From the NCBI RefSeq assembly GCF_004023625.1, contig NZ_RPDJ01000007.1, forward strand, positions 1 to 64,000: a stretch of 64,000 nt of DNA. The letters are read 5' to 3'. A program made the position numbers and the translations under genes. Positions within the stretch are counted from its first letter, which is position 1; the number at the start of each line of letters is the position of its first letter. This DNA comes from Streptomyces cavernae (lineage in GTDB: Bacteria; Actinomycetota; Actinomycetes; Streptomycetales; Streptomycetaceae). This document shows, piece by piece, positions 3,667 to 55,753 of the stretch. The notes under the pieces are model-generated. The model made no database searches and was not told where the DNA came from. It worked only from the letters and a program-made list of their open reading frames with translations.

Positions 3667-5082
3667 GTGATCGCCCTCTCTCTCGCCGAGATCGCAGCTG
3701 TCGTCGGCGGGCAGACGCACGACATACCGGATCCGGAGTCCGTACATGTCACCGGACCTGTCGTCCGGGATTCCCGTGAGGTGGAACCGGGGTGCCTCTT
3801 CGTCGCCTTCGTGGGCGAGCGCGTGGACGGCCACGACTTCGCCGCGGCCGTTGTCGAGGCGGGTGCGGCAGCCGTGCTGGCGTCCCGCCCCGTCGGTGTG
3901 CCCGCCGTCGTCGTGGACGACGTCCAGCGGGCCCTGGGGGCACTGGCACGCCATGTCGTGGCGCGGCTCGGCACGACCCTCATCGCCCTCACCGGCTCCG
4001 CGGGCAAGACCAGCACCAAGGACCTGATCGCGCAGGTGCTGCGGCGCAAGGCGCCGACGGTCTTCACCCCCGGTTCGCTGAACAACGAGATCGGGCTGCC
4101 GCTGACGGCGCTCAGTGCCACCGAGGAGACGAAATTCCTCGTCCTGGAGATGGGCGCCCGGGGCATCGGCCACATCCGCTACCTCACGGACCTGACGCCC
4201 CCGAAGGTCGGCCTGGTGCTCAACGTCGGCACCGCCCACATCGGCGAGTTCGGCGGCCGCGAGCAGATCGCCCAGGCGAAGGGCGAACTGGTCGAGGGCC
4301 TCCCCGAGGACGGCGCGGCGATCCTCAACGCCGACGATCCGCTCGTCCGCGCCATGGCCTCGCGGACCAAGGCCCGGGTGATCCTCTTCGGTGAGTCCGG
4401 CGAAGCGGACGTACGCGCCGAGAACGTACGTCTCACAGAGGGCGGACAGCCCGCCTTCACGCTTCACACACCCTCCGGGTGCAGTGACGTGACCATGCGC
4501 CTGTACGGTGAGCACCACGTGTCGAACGCGCTCGCCGCGGCCGCCGTCGCCCATGAGCTGGGCATGTCCGCAGACGAGATCGCCGTCGCGCTCTCCGAGG
4601 CGGGCTCCCTCTCCCGCTGGCGGATGGAGGTCACCGAGCGCCCGGACGGCGTGACGATCGTCAACGACGCCTACAACGCGAACCCCGAGTCCATGCGGGC
4701 CGCCCTCAGGGCGCTGGCGGCCATGGGCAAAGCCGCACAGGCACGAGGGGGCCGCACGTGGGCGGTGCTCGGCAAGATGGCCGAGCTCGGGGACGAGGCG
4801 CTCGCCGAGCACGACGCGGTCGGACGGCTCGCCGTCCGGCTCAACGTCAGCAAGCTCGTCGCGGTCGGGGACAGGGAAGCGTCCTGGCTGCAACTGGGCG
4901 CATATAACGAGGGTTCGTGGGGTGAGGAGTCGGTGCACGTGTCCGACGCACAGGCGGCGATCGACCTGTTGCGCAGCGAGTTGCGCCCGGGCGACGTCGT
5001 GCTCGTGAAGGCGTCCAGGTCGGTCGGACTTGAAGGAGTGGCGCAGGCGCTCCTCGAGAGCGGCGCCGAGGGTGAGGTCTGA
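3667..5082 (+). CDS. murF: UDP-MurNAc-tripeptide:D-Ala-D-Ala ligase MurF
   Basis: ATP-dependent cytoplasmic ligase that completes the UDP-MurNAc-pentapeptide. GTG start, 471 aa, a normal family length. The N-terminal uridine-binding region is followed by the Mur-ligase P-loop TGSAGKT at residues 109-115, the central-domain EMGARG segment and the NDAYNANPES motif of the C-terminal domain. It starts 4 bases downstream of murE and is followed 6 bases later by mraY, so the genes are almost certainly cotranscribed. Confidence 0.96.
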   Translation: MIALSLAEIAAVVGGQTHDIPDPESVHVTGPVVRDSREVEPGCLFVAFVGERVDGHDFAAAVVEAGAAAVLASRPVGVPAVVVDDVQRALGALARHVVARLGTTLIALTGSAGKTSTKDLIAQVLRRKAPTVFTPGSLNNEIGLPLTALSATEETKFLVLEMGARGIGHIRYLTDLTPPKVGLVLNVGTAHIGEFGGREQIAQAKGELVEGLPEDGAAILNADDPLVRAMASRTKARVILFGESGEADVRAENVRLTEGGQPAFTLHTPSGCSDVTMRLYGEHHVSNALAAAAVAHELGMSADEIAVALSEAGSLSRWRMEVTERPDGVTIVNDAYNANPESMRAALRALAAMGKAAQARGGRTWAVLGKMAELGDEALAEHDAVGRLAVRLNVSKLVAVGDREASWLQLGAYNEGSWGEESVHVSDAQAAIDLLRSELRPGDVVLVKASRSVGLEGVAQALLESGAEGEV

Positions 5083-54126: not shown

Positions 54127-54535
54127 CGGTCCGGCAGCCGGGCGGCTCGACGATCCTGTCGATCCGTCAGCTGTTGGAATCCGACTGTTGGTGCGGTCCG
54201 TCGGCTGGTGCGGTGGGGCTGTTGGTGCGGTCCGTCAGCTGGTGCGACGATGGGGCCTGTTGGTGACGTTCGTCAGCCGGTGCGGTCCGGAACCGGTGCG
54301 GTCCGCCGGTCGGTCCGGCAGGTCAGCCGGTTCGGTCCTGGAGTCGGTTCGGGCGCGTCAGCCGGTTCGGTCCTGTAAGCCGGTTCCGTCCGGTCGGCTC
54401 GCCCCGTCCGGTCGGCTCGCCCCGTCCGGTCGGCTCGCCCCGTCCGGTCGGCTCGCCCCGTCCGGTCGGCTCGCCTCGTCCGTCCGGTCCGCCCCGGCCG
54501 TTCGGTCCGTCGGCCGTGGCAGCCGGTGGCTGATA
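54127..54535. other. Repeat-dense gap between trpE and the next gene
   Basis: No gene is supported. The first half has degenerate repeats of GGTGCGGTCCGTCAGCTGG (about 54190-54300); the second contains an exact 18-bp minisatellite (54386-54475). The promoter of the following gene lies at the end. Confidence 0.65.
54386..54475. repeat. 18-bp minisatellite, five exact copies
   Basis: CCGTCCGGTCGGCTCGCC is repeated five times head to tail without a single change (units start at 54386, 54404, 54422, 54440, 54458). Degenerate copies continue on both sides. Exact identity suggests recent expansion. Confidence 0.95.
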
Positions 54536-54544
54536 TGGCCCCGG

Positions 54545-54575
54545 TTGACTCGCGTCGCCTGCCGCGCGCGATAGT
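54545..54575 (+). promoter_or_regulatory. Promoter of the TIGR02234-type gene
   Basis: TTGACT (54545-54550) and GATAGT (54570-54575) are spaced by 19 bases. The start point would fall at GTG 54583, giving a leaderless mRNA. Confidence 0.55.
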
Positions 54576-54582
54576 GGGACAC

Positions 54583-55227
54583 GTGACTGCCGCTCCCCGC
54601 CCTCGCCCCGAAGCCGAAGCCGAAGCCGCCGGACCCGGCCGTTCCGGTCGCCGCAGCCTCGCGGTCGCCCTGTTGTGCGGCGCCGCCGGCGCGGCCGTCG
54701 CGCTGCTCGCCTCCCGGCAGGGGTGGTCCGAGGGCACCGCCTCCGTTGCGGGCGGTGACCTCCCGCTCACAGCCAAGGGCAGCGATGTCACGGGCGTTCC
54801 CGCCGCCCTCGCGGTCGTGGGCCTCGCCGCGCTCGTCGCCGTCTTCGCCGTGCGCCGCGCGGGCCGTTCCCTGGTCGCGGGACTGCTCGCGCTGTCCGGA
54901 GCCGGGACGATGGCGGCGGCGCTGGTCGGCGCCGGGGACGGCACGGCACTGGACGAGAAGGCGGCCCAGGTCTCCGGTGACACCTCGGCCACGGCCGACG
55001 CGCTTACCCACACGGCCTGGCCCTACGTCGCCGCCCTCGGCGGCTTCCTGATCCTGCTGGCCGGGCTGCTCGCACTGCGGTACGGCAAGCTGTGGCCCTC
55101 GATGTCGGGACGCTACGAACGGGACGGCAGCCCCCGCACGCGCCGTGTCCGGCCGGTGGCCGACCCCGACCGGCCCGAGGACATCTGGAAGGCGCTGGAC
55201 CGGGGAGAGGACCCGACGGGCGCTTAG
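54583..55227 (+). CDS. Trp-locus membrane protein (TIGR02234-type)
   Basis: 214 aa from GTG 54583. Four hydrophobic segments (about residues 24-42, 68-88, 92-112, 148-170) with a short polar tail rich in Arg/Asp. Actinobacteria typically carry such a membrane protein beside trp genes, defined as TIGR02234; function is unknown. The stop codon TAG is formed by the TTA flank of the MITE-like element and its first base. Confidence 0.75.
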   Translation: MTAAPRPRPEAEAEAAGPGRSGRRSLAVALLCGAAGAAVALLASRQGWSEGTASVAGGDLPLTAKGSDVTGVPAALAVVGLAALVAVFAVRRAGRSLVAGLLALSGAGTMAAALVGAGDGTALDEKAAQVSGDTSATADALTHTAWPYVAALGGFLILLAGLLALRYGKLWPSMSGRYERDGSPRTRRVRPVADPDRPEDIWKALDRGEDPTGA

Positions 55228-55316
55228 GGCTTGCCGGGATACAACTTGCGTGCTCCGGGTCTTGACACTGCAGCTCAGGACAGATGCTCGCCGACGATTT
55301 ATTTCCCGGCAAGCCC
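55227..55316. mobile_element. 90-bp MITE-like element or IS remnant
   Basis: A 12-bp perfect terminal inverted repeat GGGCTTGCCGGG (55227-55238) / CCCGGCAAGCCC (55305-55316) encloses 66 bases without coding capacity and with lower GC than its surroundings. TTA stands directly outside each end (55224-55226 and 55317-55319), matching the 3-bp TNA target duplication of some IS5-group elements. Removing one TTA and the element rejoins the flanks without changing the stop codon of the upstream gene. A fold-back transcription terminator is the alternative. Confidence 0.6.
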
Positions 55317-55486
55317 TTAGCCGGGCGACGGGGGTGGACCCGTCCCAGCCGGGTGCCTGAACTGGGGTTCGGTTCTGTGGCGGAGGTCGCACGGGCACCC
55401 CGCGGTCACCCCCTAGCCTGGGTGCGGGACAATGGGCCGGGAGCATCGGACTCTCGGACGACGTAGACAGCAACGAGGAGCAAGTC

Positions 55487-55753
55487 ATGGCGGGCAGCAG
55501 CCACGGACACACCCCGGCCGCCTGGACCGGTGTCACCATCATGTTCATCGGTTTTTGCGTCGCGGGTGCCTTCATGGTGATGGCCAACCCGTTGGGCTTC
55601 TGGGCCGGCATGGTGATCGTGGCCCTCGGCGGGGTCGTCGGCTGGGCGATGAGCGCCGCGGGGCTGGGCCAGCCGAAGAGCGCACAGCAGCCCGTCGTGA
55701 CCGCCGCCGCCGCGGAGAAGGGCGCTCCGGAGCCGGTCAGCGTGGAGAGCTGA
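55487..55753 (+). CDS. HGxxPAAW-motif small membrane protein
   Basis: 88 aa from ATG 55487 with GAGGAG upstream. The opening MAGSSHGHTPAAW carries the HGxxPAAW motif that names an actinobacterial family, followed by two membrane spans (about 14-34 and 37-57) and an Ala/Glu/Val-rich tail. Function unknown; it is regularly found beside trp genes. GACAAT at 55428-55433 may be its -10 box. A terminator follows at 55816. Confidence 0.85.
   Translation: MAGSSHGHTPAAWTGVTIMFIGFCVAGAFMVMANPLGFWAGMVIVALGGVVGWAMSAAGLGQPKSAQQPVVTAAAAEKGAPEPVSVES

Follow-up and report, generated by a model that had tools for sequence, protein, structure and literature searches.

The element described here lies in the 64,000-nucleotide stretch of Streptomyces cavernae DNA that was analysed (the window), at the stop codon of a gene for a tryptophan-associated transmembrane protein (Table 1). 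The frame of this gene, whose true start may be later than position 54526, ends in GCT TAG, and the element begins with this final G. Further upstream lies a frame that we take, from its translation, to be trpE-like, and beyond the next gene downstream, profile matches identified a DUF2752 gene and an indole-3-glycerol phosphate synthase gene. The space between the trpE-like frame and the host gene is occupied at 54386-54505 by an 18-bp tandem array (6.7 copies, 92% match), which is preceded by weaker 16- to 35-bp arrays.

An earlier sequence-only reading had described a 90-bp MITE-like insertion at the stop codon of a membrane-protein gene, with 12-bp perfect terminal repeats and TTA direct repeats, and these features were all confirmed. 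GGGCTTGCCGGG occupies 55227-55238, and 55305-55316 carries its exact reverse complement, with the perfect match running on to 13 bp, and an inverted repeat of 23 nt (87% complementary) spans 55222-55321. An alternative reading of the direct repeat is CTTAG. The same reading correctly held that the insertion rebuilds TAG and leaves the gene unaltered: because the element starts with G, a TTA followed by it still supplies a TAG, and a TAA remains TAA.

Table 1. Features of the window element and of the adjoining genes
Feature	Position	Strand	Basis
90-bp non-autonomous element (MITE), type A of two subtypes	55227..55316	+	26 own-genome places, flank alignment
Left terminal inverted repeat, GGGCTTGCCGGGA	55227..55239	+	13-bp perfect complement of right end
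Right terminal inverted repeat	55304..55316	-	perfect complement of left end
Left target-duplication copy TTA, inside CTTAG 55223-55227	55224..55226	.	23/25 copies with identical TTA or TAA flanks
Right target-duplication copy TTA, inside CTTAG 55316-55320	55317..55319	.	copy alignment
Central conserved core TCTTGACACTGCAGCTCAG, element positions 34-52	55260..55278	+	conservation among family members
Host gene, TIGR02234/Trp_oprn_chp tryptophan-associated transmembrane protein	54526..55227	+	profile matches
HGxxPAAW family protein, next gene downstream	55487..55753	+	NF041681

Copies, empty sites and relatives of the element

A search for further copies, as had been proposed, located the element at 26 places in the 10.4-Mb, 131-contig draft of its own genome, the window copy included. 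One of these copies (L026) is cut by a contig end and was left out of the counts. Both ends are present in the remaining 25, of which 24 are exactly 90 bp long and one, which retains the core, is 74 bp long. In 23 of these 25 copies the same three bases, either TTA or TAA, flank the element on each side, mostly within CTWAG. Of the two subtypes, type A includes five letter-for-letter identical copies, the window copy among them, and the other subtype includes six copies identical to each other. Some of the places are not independent insertions, since at least two pairs have flanks in common beyond those contributed by a second repeat family, M2 (see below): a long flank is the same in L016 and L026, as is the left flank in L005 and L011. 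Given the 26 places and an RNA fold of -41.6 kcal/mol, which lies 4.67 s.d. below shuffles (z -4.67), the window element is not a product of chance.

A search of 392 genus genomes found the host gene itself in 377. The element was found in none of the 29 best orthologous loci, each read across the stop codon, and after 11 loci had been added, a scan with a covariance model of the family detected it in 0/40 orthologous loci from 38 genomes. Its presence at the same place in all relatives, which had been named as the sign of a terminator, was therefore not seen. The host gene of the nearest relative among those sampled is 82% identical, so that the empty sites seen are all from other species. 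With its 90 bp, terminal inverted repeats, target duplication, dispersed copies and an empty site in relatives, the window element is firmly identified as a MITE; at this length it is too short to contain a transposase gene.

The family extends beyond this genome. A covariance model built from ten members, applied with a cut-off of E <=1e-3, matched 27 of the 392 genomes of the genus, the own genome included, and was more sensitive than a plain DNA search of 295 genus genomes, which returned the own genome and one other (G019). The best match was 88-90 bp long in 21 of the 27 genomes, and 85, 87 or 105 bp in the others except for three 40-bp palindromes, which may be something other than the 90-bp family. 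These near-perfect palindromes (L188, L189 and L190) have the family's ends and are flanked by TAA on one side and TTA on the other, or by CAA and TTA in L190. In a class-level sample of 394 genomes from 137 genera, screened with filters that lose weak matches, the own genome alone matched.

Relatives were also found on six Streptomyces plasmid records and one viral contig. The window copy as query gave no plasmid and no phage match; the viral copy matched five plasmid records and no phage, and a copy from NBC_00178 matched one more plasmid record, again with no phage. On one of the six, plasmid NZ_CP108509.1 of Streptomyces sp. NBC_01237, the copy is identical to that on the second contig of G019 and has the same coordinates. 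Another plasmid, NZ_CP109406.1 (L160), carries two relatives in the same orientation at 1793-1882 and 4239-4328, about 2.4 kb apart and with equal model scores. An annotated ISAs1 transposase gene lies between them, and the two could act as a composite unit.

For comparison, members were sorted into a near class (19 chosen members) and a second class (13 members). The 105-bp L176 and the palindromes L188-L190 were left out, as were additional copies from genomes already represented and weak matches that had no locus. In the near class, 17/19 members are exactly 90 bp long and flanks match in 13/19, while in the second class 10/13 are 89 bp long and flanks match in 9/13.

Ends, target and the probable ISAzo13-family driver

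Taken together, the ends and the target suggest that an ISAzo13-family DDE transposase acts in trans on the ends of this MITE and inserts it at CTWAG, a reading to which we assign a probability of about 0.86. Scanning for TWA followed by a 17-base end pattern yielded 73 stretches in genome_contigs (84,980 species) and one in viral_contigs. Four of these 74 matches had fewer than 60 bp behind the end and were dropped, leaving 70 ends, only 56 of them with at least 400 bp. Fifteen of the 70 run into a frame for an ISAzo13-family transposase, which mostly starts about 50-80 bp inside; all 15 come from actinobacterial records, and a single Trebonia genome accounts for two of them. The remaining 55 ends, which include the viral relative of the 90-bp element, gave no match to two actinobacterial ISAzo13 queries, and many of them come from distant phyla. 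Several end matches of the same type occur in a Methanosarcinales MAG (DAOVGE01; L115, L121, L147 and others) and in a Deltaproteobacteria MAG (L077, L079, L125, L143 and L145), where those followed by 60 bp or more likewise did not match the actinobacterial ISAzo13 queries. Such ends in archaea and other phyla are possibly related elements.

Four complete elements were recovered (1,752, 1,754, 1,706 and 1,699 bp), with matching TWA flanks in three of the four. One with matching TWA, the Nonomuraea element L090, has ends that agree in only 11/17 bases, and its protein matches NF033519 (ISAzo13 family; E 1.2e-176) and PF07592 (1e-144), with the IS630 model below its cut-off. Another Streptomyces genome, G166, contains 17 full-length PF07592 frames. 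Among them are six copies, four of them with matching TWA flanks, of a 1,697-bp element that has GGGCTTGCAGATCATYA ends and contains a 544-aa frame, as well as uninterrupted 1,760-bp copies with matching TAA flanks in 2/2; these flank counts exclude seven further full-length frames. By eye, the G166 ends have 11-12 of 17 bases in common with the window copy. A 90-bp relative directly adjoins one of the 1,697-bp copies in this genome, and one TAA is common to both. In G066, a single 1,694-bp copy has differing flanks. The outermost 18 bp of the left end in type B and of the right end in type A are identical to the end of a broken copy in S. viridosporus; the right half of this broken element was not found in its locus.

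The distribution of the two kinds of element was also compared across the genomes of the genus. PF07592 is present in 12/12 genomes with the strongest family-model matches, a cut (E <=1e-9) that was set after seeing the match list, versus 137 of 380 others (Fisher p 7e-6). It is found at background level in the weaker model-positive genomes (5/15). Over all model-positive genomes the count is 17/27, versus 132/365 for the others.

In the examples found, ISAzo13 elements (NF033519, PF07592) resemble the 90-bp element in having ends of the type GGGCTTGC-G and a TWA duplication at CTWAG, but they carry a transposase gene, which the 90-bp element lacks, and there is no firm likeness beyond about 18 bp. 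When the interior was compared with seven ISAzo13 elements (28 comparisons each of four kinds), no firm similarity was detected: no more than 25 of 500 shuffles reached the observed value in 1/28 left-left, 4/28 right-right, 1/28 left-right and 0/28 right-left comparisons, and for the best right-right comparison 3/500 did so. Since the compared sequences are related to each other, this signal is at most a hint, and we do not claim that the interior derives from an ISAzo13 element.

In its own genome, the element is accompanied by ISAzo13 pieces with other ends. The sequence-only reading had suggested looking for a host insertion sequence with the same ends, and none was recognised: no autonomous element with GGGCTTGCCGGGAAATAA ends was seen in the 131-contig draft at up to one mismatch in 14 bases. 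Four unpaired end matches (contigs 28, 13, 64 and 25) were considered as an autonomous copy and rejected, having no common repeat and no partner end nearby. What the draft does contain are five PF07592 pieces, most of them at contig ends, with ends of the GGGCCTGTCGATGAATTAGT type where these are readable. MITEs are often found without a cognate autonomous element in the same genome. One ISAzo13 copy of the own genome is split by a group II intron. The transposase pieces on contigs 34, 52, 65 and 90 (L154-L157) are interrupted after DTKKKE and at PPGT/SKWN, Rfam detected group II intron signatures in contig 65, and L130 has a similar break at PPGT.

Because no autonomous element with the exact ends was found in the draft and the host ISAzo13 pieces have other ends, we infer the driver of the window copy from the elements of other genomes, and an ISAzo13-family enzyme is probably that driver. 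Such a transposase would recognise the ends in trans and insert the element at CTWAG with duplication of the central TWA, moving it either by cutting or by copying. The source of the enzyme, which might be a plasmid or a copy that was lost or is missing from the assembly, would have, or would have had, ends closer to the 90-bp element than those of the ISAzo13 pieces in the host assembly.

The closest known kind of element is the ordinary bacterial MITE, of which MITEAba12 of Acinetobacter is an example (PMC6382973). Like the 90-bp element, bacterial MITEs are short, contain no gene, have terminal inverted repeats, a target duplication and many copies, and are thought to be moved in trans; the 90-bp element differs in its probable ISAzo13 driver and in a length of about 90 bp and a central core that are kept between species. 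Neither an ISAzo13 MITE nor a Streptomyces MITE was found in the titles, the opening parts of abstracts and the passages of PMC9208149 that were covered. For Streptomyces, the 90-bp element is a clearly delimited miniature element for which a driver family is probable, the target is defined and the interior can be tested, and it could serve as a small substrate for studying ISAzo13 transposases.

The central core and alternative readings

Conservation within the element is uneven. In the near class, mean conservation is 0.87 at positions 1-18, 0.895 at 19-25, 0.61 at 26-34, 0.90 at 35-52, 0.71 at 53-56, 0.905 at 57-66, 0.86 at 67-72 and 0.85 at 73-90. Identity between the classes is 0.75 at 1-18, 0.55 at 19-25, 0.39 at 26-33, 0.77 at 34-41, 0.61 at 42-52, 0.49 at 53-72 and 0.67 at 73-90, with 0.68 over the whole core (34-52). 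Judged by conservation both within and between classes, the CTTGACA of the core consensus CTTGACA-N7-TCA is therefore held like the ends, while the linkers are not. A core as conserved as the ends is unexpected for a plain deletion derivative, and we regard it as a candidate binding site for the transposase or for a host protein. Its TTGACA was also considered as a promoter element, a reading rejected after no sigma-70-like site was found.

These observations raise the possibility that the element is mobile but has a functional interior (a protein-binding dyad, a small RNA or a part of the transpososome), which would make it a specialised element rather than a plain deletion derivative and would be compatible with an ISAzo13-family driver. 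The nearly invariant length in the near class fits this idea, as do the contrasts between the core and its neighbours, namely 35-52 against 26-34 and 53-56 within the near class and 34-41 against 26-33 between classes. However, the inner stretches 19-25, 57-66 and 67-72 are conserved in the near class as well, so that much of the conservation of the core may reflect common ancestry and spread by horizontal transfer. The dyad TGAC-N7-GTCA, moreover, is exact in only 7/13 second-class and 2/19 near-class members and not in the window copy, and no known factor was matched to it. We consider a functional interior possible but rather unlikely.

The IS5-type enzyme that the sequence-only reading had proposed to act in trans did not find support. 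Some IS5 groups duplicate TNA targets. IS5-family transposases are also annotated near two of the plasmid relatives, which would fit a MITE of an IS5-family insertion sequence. Nevertheless, a single IS5 query (the first open piece of the F41 plasmid gene) matched 0/70 end stretches versus 15/70 for ISAzo13; although one query says little about the IS5 family as a whole, the ends and target point to ISAzo13-family elements, and we regard an IS5 origin as very improbable. A structural RNA, terminator or attenuator of a local transcript, suggested by the strong fold and by changes on both sides that keep the pair in 5/25 predicted pairs, can be practically dismissed, as the window element has no Rfam match up to E 1 and no terminator-like site, is absent from all 40 orthologous loci and stands at 25 other places of the own genome with target duplications, and as a transposon with one enzyme binding both of its ends would be just as likely to show paired changes there.

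Landing sites in stop codons and at M2 repeats

For a MITE that mostly lies at CTWAG, the rarity of this target in the GC-rich genome bears on where copies are found. The window contains five CTWAG sites, two of which are the flanks of the window element, versus 18.9 expected from dinucleotides. Six of the 25 copies are located exactly in the stop codon of a GC3-rich frame. Free CTWAG sites were counted in the window and 16 further stretches of the own genome (144,539 bases), leaving out sites near either repeat family; three of the ten sites seen are at the stop of a GC3-rich frame and one is inside such a frame. With 6/25 copies versus 3/10 free sites, a small sample, insertion into stop codons fits target availability without a special preference.

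Most copies have a second association: 17 of the 25 directly adjoin a copy of M2. This MITE-like family, exemplified in the own genome by L224-L243, has 116 matches to its ends GGGTCCTTKCACTATG, or about 58 copies, and its flanks are mostly of the CTNAG type and often, though not always, alike on both sides. CTWAG is present at 13 of the 40 ends of 20 M2 copies that lack the 90-bp element. As a rough estimate, about 17 of 45-50 CTWAG edges of M2 are used, versus eight of about 730 other sites. Neutrality of these sites, a local preference or joint movement might each lie behind this association. The element is an example of how mobile DNA can occupy stop codons and the borders of other repeats without harm to a GC-rich genome.

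A broader and more speculative reading, which we hold to be doubtful, is that the 90-bp family is a specialised minimal Streptomyces transposon and not a decayed insertion sequence. CTTGACA-N7-TCA, at a fixed distance from both ends, might then serve the assembly of the transpososome or recruit a host factor. The family might spread between species via plasmids and phage-like elements, and it might tend to land at the edges of another MITE as safe landing pads where CTWAG is rare. M2 is itself similar to the 90-bp element in being MITE-like with short flanking repeats, and some of its copies have one CTWAG in common with the 90-bp element, but its ends are different and its length varies from about 50 to 360 bp.
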